A stretch of 61,146 nucleotides of DNA from Chloroflexota bacterium (GTDB lineage: Bacteria; Chloroflexota; Anaerolineae; UBA4142). The DNA is taken from assembly GCA_023381515.1 (NCBI GenBank), contig JAMCQI010000062.1, positions 1 to 61,146 of the forward strand. Direction: 5' to 3'. Positions 28,661-58,617 of this stretch are shown one piece after another. Within the stretch, counting starts at the first letter, position 1. Every line of letters starts with the position of its first letter. The position numbers and the translations under genes are program-made. A model generated the notes under the pieces. It saw only the letters and a list, made by a program, of their open reading frames with translations. It had not been told where the DNA came from and did not search any database.

Positions 28661-28734
28661 CGCCCCTGGCGGGACTCGAACCCACAACCAACTGCTTAGA
28701 AGGCAGGTGCTCTGTCCGATTGAGCTACAGGGGC
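28661..28734 (-). tRNA. tRNA-Arg (anticodon TCT)
   Basis: A 74-nt cloverleaf on the minus strand. The acceptor stem GCCCCTG/CAGGGGC is perfect, with discriminator G. D arm GCTC/GAGC; anticodon loop CTTCTAA with TCT at 28698-28700; T arm GTGGG-TTCGAGT-CCCGC. The first anticodon-stem pair is a C-T mismatch. The 3' CCA is not encoded, matching the CCA-adding enzyme at 10238. Confidence 0.95.
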
Positions 28735-45323: not shown

Positions 45324-45342
45324 AGGATAGGGGCGAGTGACG

Positions 45343-46074
45343 ATGGGAACACGGCCGGCGTTTTATTATTTTGGGAATGCGTTCCTCCGCGCAGCATTCA
45401 AAATCTTGTTGCGCGTTGATGTCCGGGGCCTGGAAAATGTCCCGCGCGACGGGCCGCTGATCGTCGCGATCACCCACAGCAGTTTTCTCGATCCGCTCCT
45501 CGCCGGAGCGTACACCCCGAGGGAAGTCATTCCGATGGCGAAAGCCGAAGTCTTTAGTTGGCCCGTCATCGGTCTCATCGTCCGCTCGTATGGGGCCTTT
45601 CCCGTCCGGCGCGGAGAGGTGGACGTCAGTGCATTCAAGTCCGCTCTGCGCATTCTCGAAGGCGGCTATGCACTCGTGATCGCCCCCGAGGGCCATCGAA
45701 GTGAATCGGGCACCTTGCAACGTGGGCGCGAAGGCGCTATAATGCTCTCGCTTCGCACGGGCGCGCCGATTTTACCCGTTGCCGTCTGGGGTGGAAAAGG
45801 CTTTTGGGAGAATCTATCTCATCTTCGCCGCACGCCCATGCGCTTTTATGTCGGTGAGCCGGTCATTCCGGAGTTGCTAGGGGCCAAACCGACCCGCGAG
45901 CGGATGGCGCAGATGTCCGATGAGCTCATGATCCGAGCCGCCGAGATGATGCCGCCTGAAATGCGCGGCTATTATGCGGAGAGAATGCAAGCCAACACAG
46001 GTTATCTGAGGACATTTCGTCCGAGCGACGGACAGGTCCTCGAGAAATCAAAGGAGGTGATGCGAGCGGGCTGA
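45343..46074 (+). CDS. plsC: 1-acyl-sn-glycerol-3-phosphate acyltransferase family protein
   Basis: 243 residues. The acyltransferase signature HSSFLD (HX4D) is followed by the PEGHRS glycerophosphate-binding motif and PVAVWGG. It makes phosphatidic acid from lysophosphatidate. A GTG at 45337 is an alternative start; the ATG at 45343 is better spaced from the GGGG upstream. The stop codon lies only 24 nt before the predicted glmS ribozyme cleavage site. Confidence 0.92.
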   Translation: MGTRPAFYYFGNAFLRAAFKILLRVDVRGLENVPRDGPLIVAITHSSFLDPLLAGAYTPREVIPMAKAEVFSWPVIGLIVRSYGAFPVRRGEVDVSAFKSALRILEGGYALVIAPEGHRSESGTLQRGREGAIMLSLRTGAPILPVAVWGGKGFWENLSHLRRTPMRFYVGEPVIPELLGAKPTRERMAQMSDELMIRAAEMMPPEMRGYYAERMQANTGYLRTFRPSDGQVLEKSKEVMRAG

Positions 46075-46095
46075 TTTCGTAAAGCGTGGGGAAGT

Positions 46096-46262
46096 ACAGC
46101 GCCAGGACGGCGATTGCCGTTGACGAGGATGGAGGTTTCCCACTTCACGGTGGGATTAACTCTGCAATCCGGTTGAACCCGAACCCCGGGTTTGCCCGGT
46201 CCTCTCGCAGAGGAAAATCGACAGATCGGCGGATGCCTCCAAGAACGACCACGTTCTTCATC
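46096..46262 (+). ncRNA. glmS self-cleaving ribozyme (glucosamine-6-phosphate riboswitch) with an extra internal domain
   Basis: Conserved core pieces occur in the right order. A|GCGCC is at 46098-46103, with cleavage expected between A46098 and G46099. P1 hairpin ACGGC-GATT-GCCGT spans 46107-46120, then TTGACGAGG (46120-46128) and TGGAGGTTT (46130-46138). ATCGA lies at 46217-46221, ATCGGCGGATG at 46225-46235, and CCTCCA (46236-46241) pairs with TGGAGG (46130-46135). P4-like hairpin AAGAACG-ACCA-CGTTCTT is at 46241-46258. Between GGTTT and ATCGA, contiguous in the model ribozymes, lies about 78 nt with three hairpins. It precedes glmS, the known target: GlcN6P binding triggers cleavage and lowers expression. 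Confidence 0.9.
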
Positions 46263-46376
46263 TTCCCCTCCAGGATGTGACAATGTCGCGTCCAAAGACG
46301 CCGGGCAACCGGCGGGACAAGCGCGCGGCAGGTGGTGACGAAATCGAATATCCTTACTCTACCGGAGGGACCCTCA

Positions 46377-48215
46377 ATGTGCGGCATTGTTGGATACGTG
46401 GGCGCGCGCGATGTCAGTCCTGTTCTGCTGGACGGCTTGCGCCGCCTCGAATATCGCGGCTACGATTCCGCTGGGATCGCCGTCCTCAACCAGGACGGCC
46501 GCATTGACATCCGCAAAAGCGAAGGCAAGCTCTCGAAGCTGGTGGACACGCTCAACGGCGCGGCCCCTCGCGGCCGACTCGGCCTGGGGCATACCCGCTG
46601 GGCAACGCACGGCGCACCCAACGACACGAACGCGCATCCGCATACGGACTGCTCTGGCCGCCTCGCCGTCGTTCACAACGGCATCATCGAGAACTATGCC
46701 GAATTGCGCGACGACTTGCGCGCTCGAGACCACAAGTTCATCACAGAAACCGATACCGAAGTCCTGGCTCACCTGATCGAGGAGGAACTGAGGGGCACGC
46801 AAGACGACATTCCAACGCTTATTGGAGCCATACAACGTGCCTTGAAGCAGGTGCGCGGCACTTTTGGCATCGGCGTAATGGATGTTCGGCACCCCGACGT
46901 CTTGGTTGGCGCGCGGCACTTTTCTCCCCTCGTCGTTGGATTGGGCCAAGGGGAAAATCTGATCGCATCGGATATCCCCGCGCTCTTGCCCTATACGCAA
47001 CGCATCCTGTTGATGGAAGACGGCGAGATTGCGGCATTGACTTCCGACTCGGTGCACCTCTATACGCTTGACGGCGATCCCGTCGAACGAGAACCGATTC
47101 AAGTGACGTGGAGCGTGCAGTCCGCCGAAAAAGGCGGCTATCCCCATTTCTTTCTCAAGGAGATTAACGAGCAACCCGCCGCTCTTGCGAATGCGCTGCG
47201 CGGACGAGTGGACGCGCACGGCGTCAGGGTTGCCGAGCTCGAGGCGCTTGATCTGGACCGCGTCGAGCGAATCAAGTTGCTCGCGTGCGGCTCTTCCTAT
47301 CACGCGGCCCTTGTCGGCAAACGGACGCTGGAGGAATGGGTACACCTGCCCGCCGAAGCCAGTATCGCTTCCGAGTTCCGTTATGCCTCGCCCTTTATCG
47401 ATGACCGCACGCTCGCGATTCTAATCACACAATCCGGGGAGACGGCCGATACGATGGCCTGCATGCGCCTCGCGAAAGCGGCGGGTGCCCAGACGCTTGC
47501 GCTCACGAATACCGTCGGCAGCTCCATCACACGCGGCGCGACCACCACGGTCAATCTTCAGGTGGGTCCCGAGATTGGGGTCGTCGCGTCCAAGACGTTC
47601 AGCGCCCAAGTCCTTTTGCTTGAACTGATTGCTCTCGATTGGGCGCGTCGCGTGGGCAGCATGCATCCGGAACGGCTTGCGACACTCACCCGCTCGCTCG
47701 CGCTTCTGCCGGACTGGGTCAAAGGGGCGCTCGGCTCTGATCAGCAAATGAAGCGTCTCGCCTCCGTCATATCCGGTCGCAAGAGCTGTTTCTTCTTGGG
47801 CCGTGGCTATGGCTATCCGACCGCATTGGAAGGCGCGCTCAAGTTGAAAGAGGTGAGCTACCTTCACGCGGAGGGCTATCCGGCGGGCGAGCTGAAGCAT
47901 GGCCCGATTGCAATGCTTGATCCTGAGATCCCGGTGATTGCCATCGCGCCGCGTAGCGCCACGCTCGAAAAAATGGTAAGCAACATCCAGGAGGTACGCG
48001 CTCGCAAGGCTCCCGTCATCGCTCTGGCCACCGAAGGCGATGCGGCGACGGCTGCCCACGCCGACGAAGTTGTGTATCTACCGGGCACGATCGAAGAACT
48101 GGCGCCGATGGTGGCCACCGTGCCTCTCCAGCTACTGGCCTACTATGTCGCCGTCGAACGGGGCTGCGATGTGGATCAGCCCCGCAACCTCGCCAAGAGC
48201 GTCACAGTGGAATAA
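46377..48215 (+). CDS. glmS: Glutamine-fructose-6-phosphate aminotransferase (isomerising)
   Basis: 612 residues. Mature N-terminus CGIVGYVG with catalytic Cys2, glutaminase motif GLGHTRWATHG near 75, then two SIS domains (LLACGSSYHAAL and FFLGRGYGYPTALEGALKLKE) and the C-terminal DVDQPRNLAKSVTVE. It makes glucosamine-6-phosphate for cell-wall and glycan synthesis. The frame opens at 46332, but GGAGGG and the obligatory Cys2 fix the ATG at 46377. Regulated by the ribozyme 115 nt upstream. Confidence 0.97.
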   Translation: MCGIVGYVGARDVSPVLLDGLRRLEYRGYDSAGIAVLNQDGRIDIRKSEGKLSKLVDTLNGAAPRGRLGLGHTRWATHGAPNDTNAHPHTDCSGRLAVVHNGIIENYAELRDDLRARDHKFITETDTEVLAHLIEEELRGTQDDIPTLIGAIQRALKQVRGTFGIGVMDVRHPDVLVGARHFSPLVVGLGQGENLIASDIPALLPYTQRILLMEDGEIAALTSDSVHLYTLDGDPVEREPIQVTWSVQSAEKGGYPHFFLKEINEQPAALANALRGRVDAHGVRVAELEALDLDRVERIKLLACGSSYHAALVGKRTLEEWVHLPAEASIASEFRYASPFIDDRTLAILITQSGETADTMACMRLAKAAGAQTLALTNTVGSSITRGATTTVNLQVGPEIGVVASKTFSAQVLLLELIALDWARRVGSMHPERLATLTRSLALLPDWVKGALGSDQQMKRLASVISGRKSCFFLGRGYGYPTALEGALKLKEVSYLHAEGYPAGELKHGPIAMLDPEIPVIAIAPRSATLEKMVSNIQEVRARKAPVIALATEGDAATAAHADEVVYLPGTIEELAPMVATVPLQLLAYYVAVERGCDVDQPRNLAKSVTVE

Positions 48216-58380: not shown

Positions 58381-58617
58381 TGCAGCCCTGCGGTGTGCGT
58401 GATGCGGTTCTGGAGTTTGAGCCAACGTTTACAAAGAGGGAGCTGATTTCTGCTGAGAGCGCGTCCACTCGTTTAGAGACCGGGCCACTCGAAGAGTAGG
58501 CAACCCACCTGCGTCAGCAGGTTCACAACCCTGGTCGCACACGGCACGGTGGGGATTGCGTGCGAAACAGAAAAGCGGGCCGCGAATGTATTCGCGGCCC
58601 GCTTTTCTGTTTCATTA
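58381..58617 (+). ncRNA. Candidate structured small RNA, about 235 nt
   Basis: It runs from the expected start of the strong promoter at 58346 to the T tail of the 24-bp hairpin terminator. There is no supported reading frame. The body (58381-58560) can fold on itself: GGTGTGCG (58392-58399) pairs with CGCACAC near 58535, extending outward with mismatches to about 12 pairs between the two ends. Internal hairpins include ACCTGC-GTCA-GCAGGT (58505-58520) and ACTC-GAA-GAGT. It is not recognised as tmRNA, RNase P RNA or SRP RNA; size and closed ends are like 6S RNA, but I cannot confirm it. Confidence 0.6.
58564..58613. terminator. Perfect 24-bp hairpin terminator
   Basis: GAAACAGAAAAGCGGGCCGCG (58564 onward) mirrors exactly to 58613, with only GT in the centre; the A and T runs at each end make it able to act in both directions. 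Confidence 0.93.

Follow-up and report, generated by a model that had tools for sequence, protein, structure and literature searches.

The glmS gene in this Chloroflexota genome is preceded by an RNA that is, on sequence comparison, a new structural variant of the glmS ribozyme, combining a conserved two-hairpin module with an extra helix formed by the leader. By the features tested, the RNA encoded in the window (the whole stretch of DNA analysed here, 61,146 nucleotides) is a member of the glmS ribozyme family whose cleavage is putative. The explanation that best accounts for the data, with a probability of about 0.62, is that of a cleaving glmS ribozyme built around a two-hairpin scaffold, with a leader helix (P0) and a Shine-Dalgarno sequence that closes after the cut; the same estimate, made jointly with this whole explanation, covers the view that the window ribozyme represents a structural subclass prevailing among the sampled Anaerolineae ribozymes. 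The features of the ribozyme and its setting are as follows, A1 being an alignment of 74 sequences that is described further below.

45337–46074, plus strand: plsC-like acyltransferase gene, upstream (NCBIfam TIGR00530, 86.3 bits, under the curated cut-off)
46087–46340, plus strand: glmS ribozyme, whole covariance-model match (RF00234, 44.5 bits, E 3.9e-7; cmscan, full window)
46098–46099, plus strand: predicted cleavage site A|G, from its place in the RF00234 alignment
46099–46103, plus strand: GCGCC, which we take to be the 5′ strand of the helix named P2.2 (RF00234 alignment, letters confirmed)
46107–46120, plus strand: P1 hairpin ACGGC/GCCGT (RF00234 alignment, letters)
46122–46128, plus strand: GACGAGG, catalytic strand and 5′ side of P2.1 (RF00234 alignment, A1)
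46131–46135, plus strand: P2 5′ strand GGAGG, partner 46236–46240 (99.7% of cells paired in 74 sequences)
46217–46221, plus strand: AUCGA, P2.1 3′ strand on the cofactor-binding side (RF00234 alignment, A1; role according to PMC7125110)
46228–46235, plus strand: GGCGGATG, including the 3′ strand of P2.2 (RF00234 alignment)
46236–46240, plus strand: P2 3′ strand CCTCC (RF00234 alignment, A1 pair counts)
46241–46258, plus strand: P3 hairpin AAGAACG/CGTTCTT with loop ACCA (sequence)
46299–46314, plus strand: apical part of P4 with GNRA loop GCAA at 46305–46308 (sequence)
46333–46336, plus strand: TGGT, candidate 3′ strand of the P3.1 pseudoknot, partner ACCA at 46248–46251, 4 bp (sequence only)
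46364–46369, plus strand: glmS Shine-Dalgarno sequence GGAGGG (sequence)
46377–48215, plus strand: glmS gene (NCBIfam TIGR01135, 783.6 bits, above cut-off)

The score of the RF00234 match exceeds the gathering score of 37 and bears out an earlier note on this DNA, which had recognised a glmS ribozyme ahead of glmS; the span given there (46096–46262) ends short of P4 and has to be extended, as the match runs to 46340. All core strands (A|GCGCC, GACGAGG, AUCGA and GGCGGAUG) are present together with P1 and P2, and P4 reads CGCCGG-GCAA-CCGGCG followed by GGACAAG, i.e. a GNRA loop and a purine internal loop. Gene order and the TIGR01135 match make the ribozyme the leader of glmS, with which it is presumably co-transcribed. 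The upstream ORF ends at 46074 and the predicted cut A46098|G46099 lies 24 nt past it, the distance that had been noted; a read-through plsC–glmS transcript is plausible, and a plsC-like gene lies upstream in all nine close relatives (L001–L009). In P2.2 of many relatives, position 5 (C or A, AGCGCC/AGCGCA) seems by eye to track the G or A in TC[GA]GCGG.

The closest GlmS relatives are from Chloroflexota, with four of the first nine labelled Anaerolineae or Anaerolineales; L001–L009 carry an insert at the same place, based on above-cut-off RF00234 matches in L001 and L009 and on sequence for the rest. A search with RF00234 at E 0.001 of 298 sampled genomes from the class of G001 found matches in 140, of which 88 are above the cut-off. 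Parsing succeeded for 127 of the 139 locus entries (12 were unparsed) and yielded 104 two-hairpin, 11 insert-free, 6 intermediate and 6 other loci, a tally in which L110 and L117 (the latter among the insert-free loci) are misparsed and in which L006 and L201 are one place counted twice. The intermediates comprise five one-hairpin loci and L102 with an insert in the P2a loop. By eye, the insert or extension in the P2a loop of L092, L102 and L124 occupies a different site from the window insert and was set aside.

A covariance model built from the two-hairpin core (R1) matches 82 of 400 Chloroflexota genomes; 68 of these have matches of at least 79 nt, 13 have only matches below 50 nt, and one combines a 78-nt with a short match. 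R1 also matches 91 of 199 Bacillota genomes, where the matches listed span 42 to 45 nt and are insert-free; the model thus detects canonical cores, without the insert, in this group. None of 99 Armatimonadota genomes matched, in a search run without a positive control. In these large searches the stricter filters miss weak matches, and the counts are lower bounds; the labels Anaerolineae, Chloroflexota, Bacillota and Armatimonadota follow the reference loci L001, L023 and L063. Overall, the comparisons indicate conservation of the two-hairpin module among Chloroflexota that carry the label Anaerolineae.

In the RF00234 alignment of the window, the strand that joins P2 to P2.1 holds a large unmodelled insert. 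The letters confirm that GGTTT (46134–46138) and ATCGA (46217–46221) are separated by 78 nt (46139–46216), as the earlier note had it. The architecture of the family is P2-UU-HP1-YYAA-HP2-GAAAAUCGA, and by homology the insert of the window consists of HP1, UUAA, HP2 and then GAAA:

46136–46137, plus strand: linker UU, P2 to HP1 (T in 72 and 74 of 74 rows)
46138–46155, plus strand: HP1 hairpin UCCCAC/GUGGGA (homology; pair probability ~0.99 in every window fold)
46156–46159, plus strand: linker UUAA (YYAA in the family, mostly CUAA)
46160–46212, plus strand: HP2 hairpin, base CUCUGC/GCAGAG plus inner stems (homology, A1)
46213–46216, plus strand: linker GAAA (71 to 73 of 74 rows per column)

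Alignment A1 was drawn from the two-hairpin class by removing cores longer than 125 letters and near-copies (77 left), leaving out L099, L148, L207 and L211, and adding the window, to give 74 rows. Both stems of the insert covary: all seven family pairs of HP1 and all five of the HP2 base include changes on both sides, with 93.5% and 92.1% of cells paired, respectively. For the whole named structure, 94.3% of cells pair compared with 72.9% in shuffled and at most 49.6% in slid controls, double changes fill 312 cells compared with 84.7 after shuffling, and the covariation score is 0.606 compared with 0.191 for shuffled (reached in 0 of 500) and at most 0.177 for slid alignments. The number of pairs with any double change (15 vs 13.6 shuffled, reached by 38 of 500) is hardly telling alone. 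P2.1 pairs in 90.5% of cells, with 17 of its 21 misses concentrated in a single column pair that adjoins a gap in GACGAG. In addition, the predicted fold of 91 nt around the insert is more stable than that of 199 out of 200 shuffled versions (z −3.29). The earlier proposal of a natural structured expansion beside the cofactor-binding strand is thereby upheld, and the aligned relatives argue against a random disruption of the core.

In the YYAA linker of A1 the last A is found in 74, the preceding A in 70 and the second-place U in 60 of the 74 rows. Because a loose linker pattern served to select the two-hairpin class initially, conserved linkers are favoured in it; a count over the 110 loci with a core of at least 58 nt is less biased, and here YYAA separates the hairpins in 99 and GAAA precedes AUCG in 98. 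A UAA/GAN-type motif was considered as a candidate reading of the linkers. HP1 is 18 nt long in 75 of 100 parsed inserts (out of 104 two-hairpin loci), while HP2 ranges from 10 to 128 nt in the same set; L153 has the shortest of these inserts. A GNRA loop caps HP1 in 41 of 74 rows, and the window HP1 has none; no docking partner was found. By eye, long repeat-like hairpins occupy the HP2 tips of L006 and L008 and the P1 tips of L002–L009, L223 and L228; the HP2 and P1 tips that carry them may point outwards.

By alignment, we take the UCG of AUCGA to be equivalent to residues 43–45 of a published construct. In the report on that construct (PMC7125110), these residues form the P2.1 second strand and belong to the cofactor pocket; the end of the insert would therefore directly adjoin the cofactor-binding strand. 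The same report states that point insertions in the core are tolerated better than deletions or base changes, long insertions lying outside the scope of that test.

Three hairpins had originally been described in the insert of the window. Two of them stand: CCCAC/GTGGG is HP1, and AACCCG/CGGGTT lies within HP2 as its inner stem. The third, CCTCT/AGAGG, and the HP2 base CTCTGC/GCAGAG are competing structures. In A1, relatives pair the letters directly 3′ of YYAA with those directly 5′ of GAAA, so that homology favours the HP2 base. Folding of the insert alone agrees (0.97 for the HP2 base, 0.03 for the third hairpin), whereas larger nested folds of the window give 0.07–0.19 and 0.78–0.89, respectively, and the lowest-energy window fold also contains CCTCT/AGAGG. 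In a nested fold the core pseudoknots are missing and their strands may pair wrongly; when these strands are blocked, the values for the window become 0.70 for the HP2 base and 0.28 for the third hairpin. On homology the third hairpin is thus less likely than the HP2 base, although the nested window folds favour it and weaken the choice between two and three; we regard the family structure as having two hairpins, and the third as a possible alternative fold of the window.

The second distinguishing element lies outside the catalytic core. The leader, i.e. the 16 nt 5′ of the cleavage site, is complementary to the joint 3′ of P3, and a segment of the same joint matches the glmS Shine-Dalgarno sequence:

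46088–46094, plus strand: P0 5′ strand GGGGAAG (complementary to 46262–46268; own-vs-swapped tests)
46262–46268, plus strand: P0 3′ strand CTTCCCC in the P3–P4 joint (complementarity; own-vs-swapped tests)
46266–46271, plus strand: CCCTCC, possible anti-Shine-Dalgarno, overlapping P0 by 3 nt (complementary to 46364–46369)

Elsewhere the P0 strands read GGGAAAGC/GCTTTCCC (L002), CCATGACG/CGTCATGG (L115), GGTCTTGACG/CGTCAAGACT (L202) and GGGACAATT/AATTGTCCC (L206). The pairing was assessed by comparing each leader with its own joint and with swapped partners, using 109 or 106 nonredundant loci of 131 entries. Across 106 loci, own partners score 18.73 compared with 15.64 for swapped ones (z 12.4, reached in 0 of 300), and controls in this test give z values of 0.7, 0.8 and 1.8; with 109 loci z is 12.5, and a score of at least 18 is attained by 74 of the 109 own pairs compared with 28.6% of swapped pairs. 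The 24 loci without GGG in the leader score 18.54 with their own and 13.20 with swapped partners. These comparisons show that, to judge from complementarity, the leader directly 5′ of the cut pairs with the P3–P4 joint in most two-hairpin loci. The insert-free relatives L085, L086, L090 and L098 also show P0; some loci (L139, L176 and L192) have a weak P0 or none, and outside the class the best scores are 10 to 16, the level of swapped pairs (L011, L012, L014, L018 and L213–L215, with L011 and L215 being one place). In the window, the pair probability of P0 is 0.93 without the Shine-Dalgarno region, 0.08 with it, and 0.99 when the core is blocked.

According to the explanation we prefer, the RNA would still cut at A46098|G46099 upon binding of GlcN6P. 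HP1, with its fixed length, and the conserved linkers would build a junction that stabilises the core by packing against it, and HP2 would extend outwards. P0 would dock the leader and keep the pyrimidine run of the joint off the glmS Shine-Dalgarno sequence; after the 5′ piece has been cut away and lost, this run would be free to pair with it. Closure of the ribosome site by cleavage would then reduce GlmS synthesis, in addition to whatever decay the cut mRNA undergoes. A point against this is that P0 duplexes might retain the cut leader rather than release it.

Such a switch has to be weighed against repression through decay of the cut mRNA alone, with P0 as a folding clamp on the leader that is unrelated to the Shine-Dalgarno sequence. 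This alternative, which we regard as unlikely, agrees with PMC6154101, which states that cleavage of the glmS ribozyme leads to mRNA degradation. Evidence on the switch comes from 94 of 131 entries in which a start was found, of which 85 or 84 are nonredundant and 79 entered the folding. The match of the joint to the Shine-Dalgarno sequence scores 17.55 compared with 15.96 for swapped joints (n 84, z 5.7, reached in 0 of 300), and the parallel control is itself raised (z 3.0, 0 of 300), which attributes part of this signal to composition; P0, at z 12.4, is the better supported of the two pairings. Several joints, moreover, hold no good anti-Shine-Dalgarno, such as CGTCATGG in L115 and CGTCAAGACT in L202. 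What speaks against decay alone is that in several loci the match extends past GGAGG, reaching 10 bp in L106, L113, L121 and L172. The best match has 6 bp or more, and shares 3 nt or more with the P0 strand, in 48 of 85 loci.

Folding of the 79 loci provides a further line of evidence. Without restraint, the free fraction of the Shine-Dalgarno sequence is 0.282 with the leader, 0.188 without it and 0.233 with shuffled leaders, removal of the leader lowering it in 39 loci and raising it in 7. With the core blocked, the corresponding values are 0.311, 0.175 and 0.224, with decreases in 47 and increases in 8 loci; real leaders keep the Shine-Dalgarno sequence more open than shuffled ones (P 6e-6), which counts against decay alone. 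So does its predicted pairing with the joint, which under the same restraint is 0.160 with the leader, 0.447 without it and 0.383 with shuffled leaders: it rises on leader removal in 36 of the 79 loci and falls in 5, and exceeds 0.5 in 12 loci when the leader is present and in 37 when it is absent. It is these core-blocked results that make the Shine-Dalgarno part of the explanation stronger. For the window itself, the switch is predicted once the core is taken as folded: pairing of joint and Shine-Dalgarno sequence rises from 0.003–0.005 in the uncleaved RNA to 0.983–0.997 after leader removal, and the free Shine-Dalgarno fraction falls from 0.204 to 0.001, so that the site is mostly paired already before cleavage (free 0.20). 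Unblocked folding of the window shows no switch, the Shine-Dalgarno sequence being closed before and after cleavage (0.02 to 0.00), as decay alone would have it.

Relatives of the ribozyme are also found in front of genes other than glmS. Two insert-length copies occur in 19 of the 82 R1-positive Chloroflexota genomes, and the copies that do not precede glmS were read in 18 of these 19 (G601 was left out). Nineteen loci from 19 genomes are of a glnA type and start with AGCG[GA]CUG as opposed to AGCGCC or AGCGCA. The RNA lies directly ahead of a glnA-like gene in seven of them, L216 (1012–1220), L218, L225, L227, L231, L232 and L243, and ahead of an ada-like gene in the other 12; wherever the flank suffices (L223, L229, L234 and L235, four of four), a glnA-like gene follows beyond the ada-like gene, with a predicted transporter gene between the two in L223. 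Type I glutamine synthetase is identified above the NCBIfam cut-off in L216, L225, L223, L231, L232, L236 and L243, where L216 and L236 are one place. Two of seven scanned glnA-type loci reach the RF00234 cut-off (L216 with 42.9 and L218 with 47.7 bits); L223, L225, L229, L231 and L232 are below it, the last with both its glnA and its glmS copy. 6S RNA genes adjoin the glnA-type RNA in L225 (759–934) and L229 (4301–4477, minus strand).

In the glnA set P0 is weak (own 14.2 vs swapped 13.5, reached by 16 of 500). The joint contains CCCTTCC in 14 of the 19 loci (L223, L228, L229, L231, L233, L234, L235 and L241–L247), close kin rather than 14 independent cases, and in all 14 GGAAGGG follows 141 to 189 nt downstream; in 12 of the 14 it is succeeded by a U run (at least four U within 20 nt). 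The remaining five loci have neither motif. This downstream GGAAGGG may belong to a terminator or output stage.

Further contexts are represented by single loci or pairs. In L221 (~4081, minus strand; one place with L257), a two-hairpin ribozyme precedes a gene with glutamate synthase domains (PF01645 and PF04898), for which PF01645 is above and NCBIfam below the cut-off. Ribozymes in L110 (1501–1765) and L251 (1510–1762) lie ahead of a DegT/DnrJ/EryC1 sugar aminotransferase gene (PF01041 for L110), and one in L250 (1418–1649, minus strand) ahead of a GlcD-like FAD-linked oxidase gene. In L099 (1501–1716) the downstream gene, cut by the end of the locus, encodes a YvcK-like protein fused to a phosphohexomutase domain (PF01933 and PF02878; NCBIfam models under their cut-offs), a context that fits the GlcN6P pathway. 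glmS is downstream in 26 of the 29 loci L084–L112 and in 14 of the 17 loci L248–L260 and L262–L265. Taken further, and as a tentative idea that we would sooner doubt than adopt, the RNA could be a general Anaerolineae regulator, in which a two-hairpin module is combined with a P0 anti-sequestor that is lost on self-cleavage, leaving the joint to bind the Shine-Dalgarno sequence; in many glnA-type leaders its target would instead be a GGAAGGG further downstream, in most cases with a U-rich run behind it. Such a regulator would serve glmS, glnA, glutamate synthase-domain, YvcK-like/phosphohexomutase and sugar aminotransferase genes, and the AGCG[GA]CUG class ahead of glnA may answer to another cofactor.

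Copies ahead of nitrogen and amino-sugar genes could call for a second input, and the linkers are conserved though they lie outside the canonical core; both points would suit an insert that acts as a second sensing domain, with HP1, HP2 and the linkers gating the ribozyme in response to the binding of a second molecule or of a protein. We consider this improbable. No conserved loop or bulge is seen in A1 outside the linkers, HP2 varies over its full range of 10 to 128 nt and bears long extra hairpins in L006 and L008, and five loci make do with one hairpin. The earlier note had offered a second signal and a folding aid as roles for the insert; the former finds no support in these data, and the folding aid, a predicted role, is the better half of that suggestion. 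That the insert is chance or mobile sequence in a decaying ribozyme, as the modest RF00234 score of 44.5 bits and the repeat-like hairpins noticed by eye in P1 and HP2 of some relatives might suggest, is rejected on the covariation in A1, next to linkers conserved in 74 sequences and catalytic and binding strands that have been kept.

The explanation favoured here, a cleaving ribozyme with a two-hairpin scaffold and P0, can be set beside known systems. The window RNA shares with canonical glmS ribozymes of Bacillota (RF00234) the cleavage site, P1, P2, the P2.1 and P2.2 strands, P3, P4 with its GNRA loop, and the place ahead of glmS; the canonical alignment contains neither two hairpins between P2 and AUCGA nor P0, both of which the window has, and the Bacillota matches have a short core of 42 to 45 nt, unlike the window. 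McCown, Roth and Breaker reportedly described in 2011 Deinococcus-Thermus versions of the glmS ribozyme whose catalytic core contains additional stems and whose supporting structures are altered. These would resemble the window RNA in having extra core stems; if they share the module, the insert is less novel, and P0 and the glnA copies are unaffected. The control genome of Deinobacterium chartae gave a reported match. A survey of GlmS matches in plasmids tallied 18 Deinococcus records, with none among the 60 matches listed, and a second such survey had no Deinococcus among the 60 of 310 matches listed. Among the open-licence titles and abstract beginnings listed, none dealt with the insert, with P0 or with glmS ribozymes preceding glnA.

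Riboswitches that control translation by hiding the Shine-Dalgarno sequence do so with a segment whose alternative partner is an upstream strand. The window RNA has in common with them a segment with these alternative partners; the difference is that self-cleavage would remove the upstream strand in the window RNA, where riboswitches displace it by refolding. Should P0 and the pairing with the Shine-Dalgarno sequence operate as suggested, self-cleavage would become a mechanical translation switch. The glmS ribozyme is a textbook RNA catalyst with a metabolite cofactor, and its two-hairpin, one-hairpin and insert-free forms constitute a natural series in which to study how an active core accommodates and exploits additional domains. 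To our knowledge, this ribozyme occurs almost exclusively with glmS; a place ahead of glnA and of further genes for nitrogen or amino-sugar metabolism would broaden its use beyond that gene. Two further RNA genes were identified in the window, a 6S RNA (58382–58559, plus strand, 63.6 bits) and a tRNA gene (28661–28734, minus strand, 69.2 bits).
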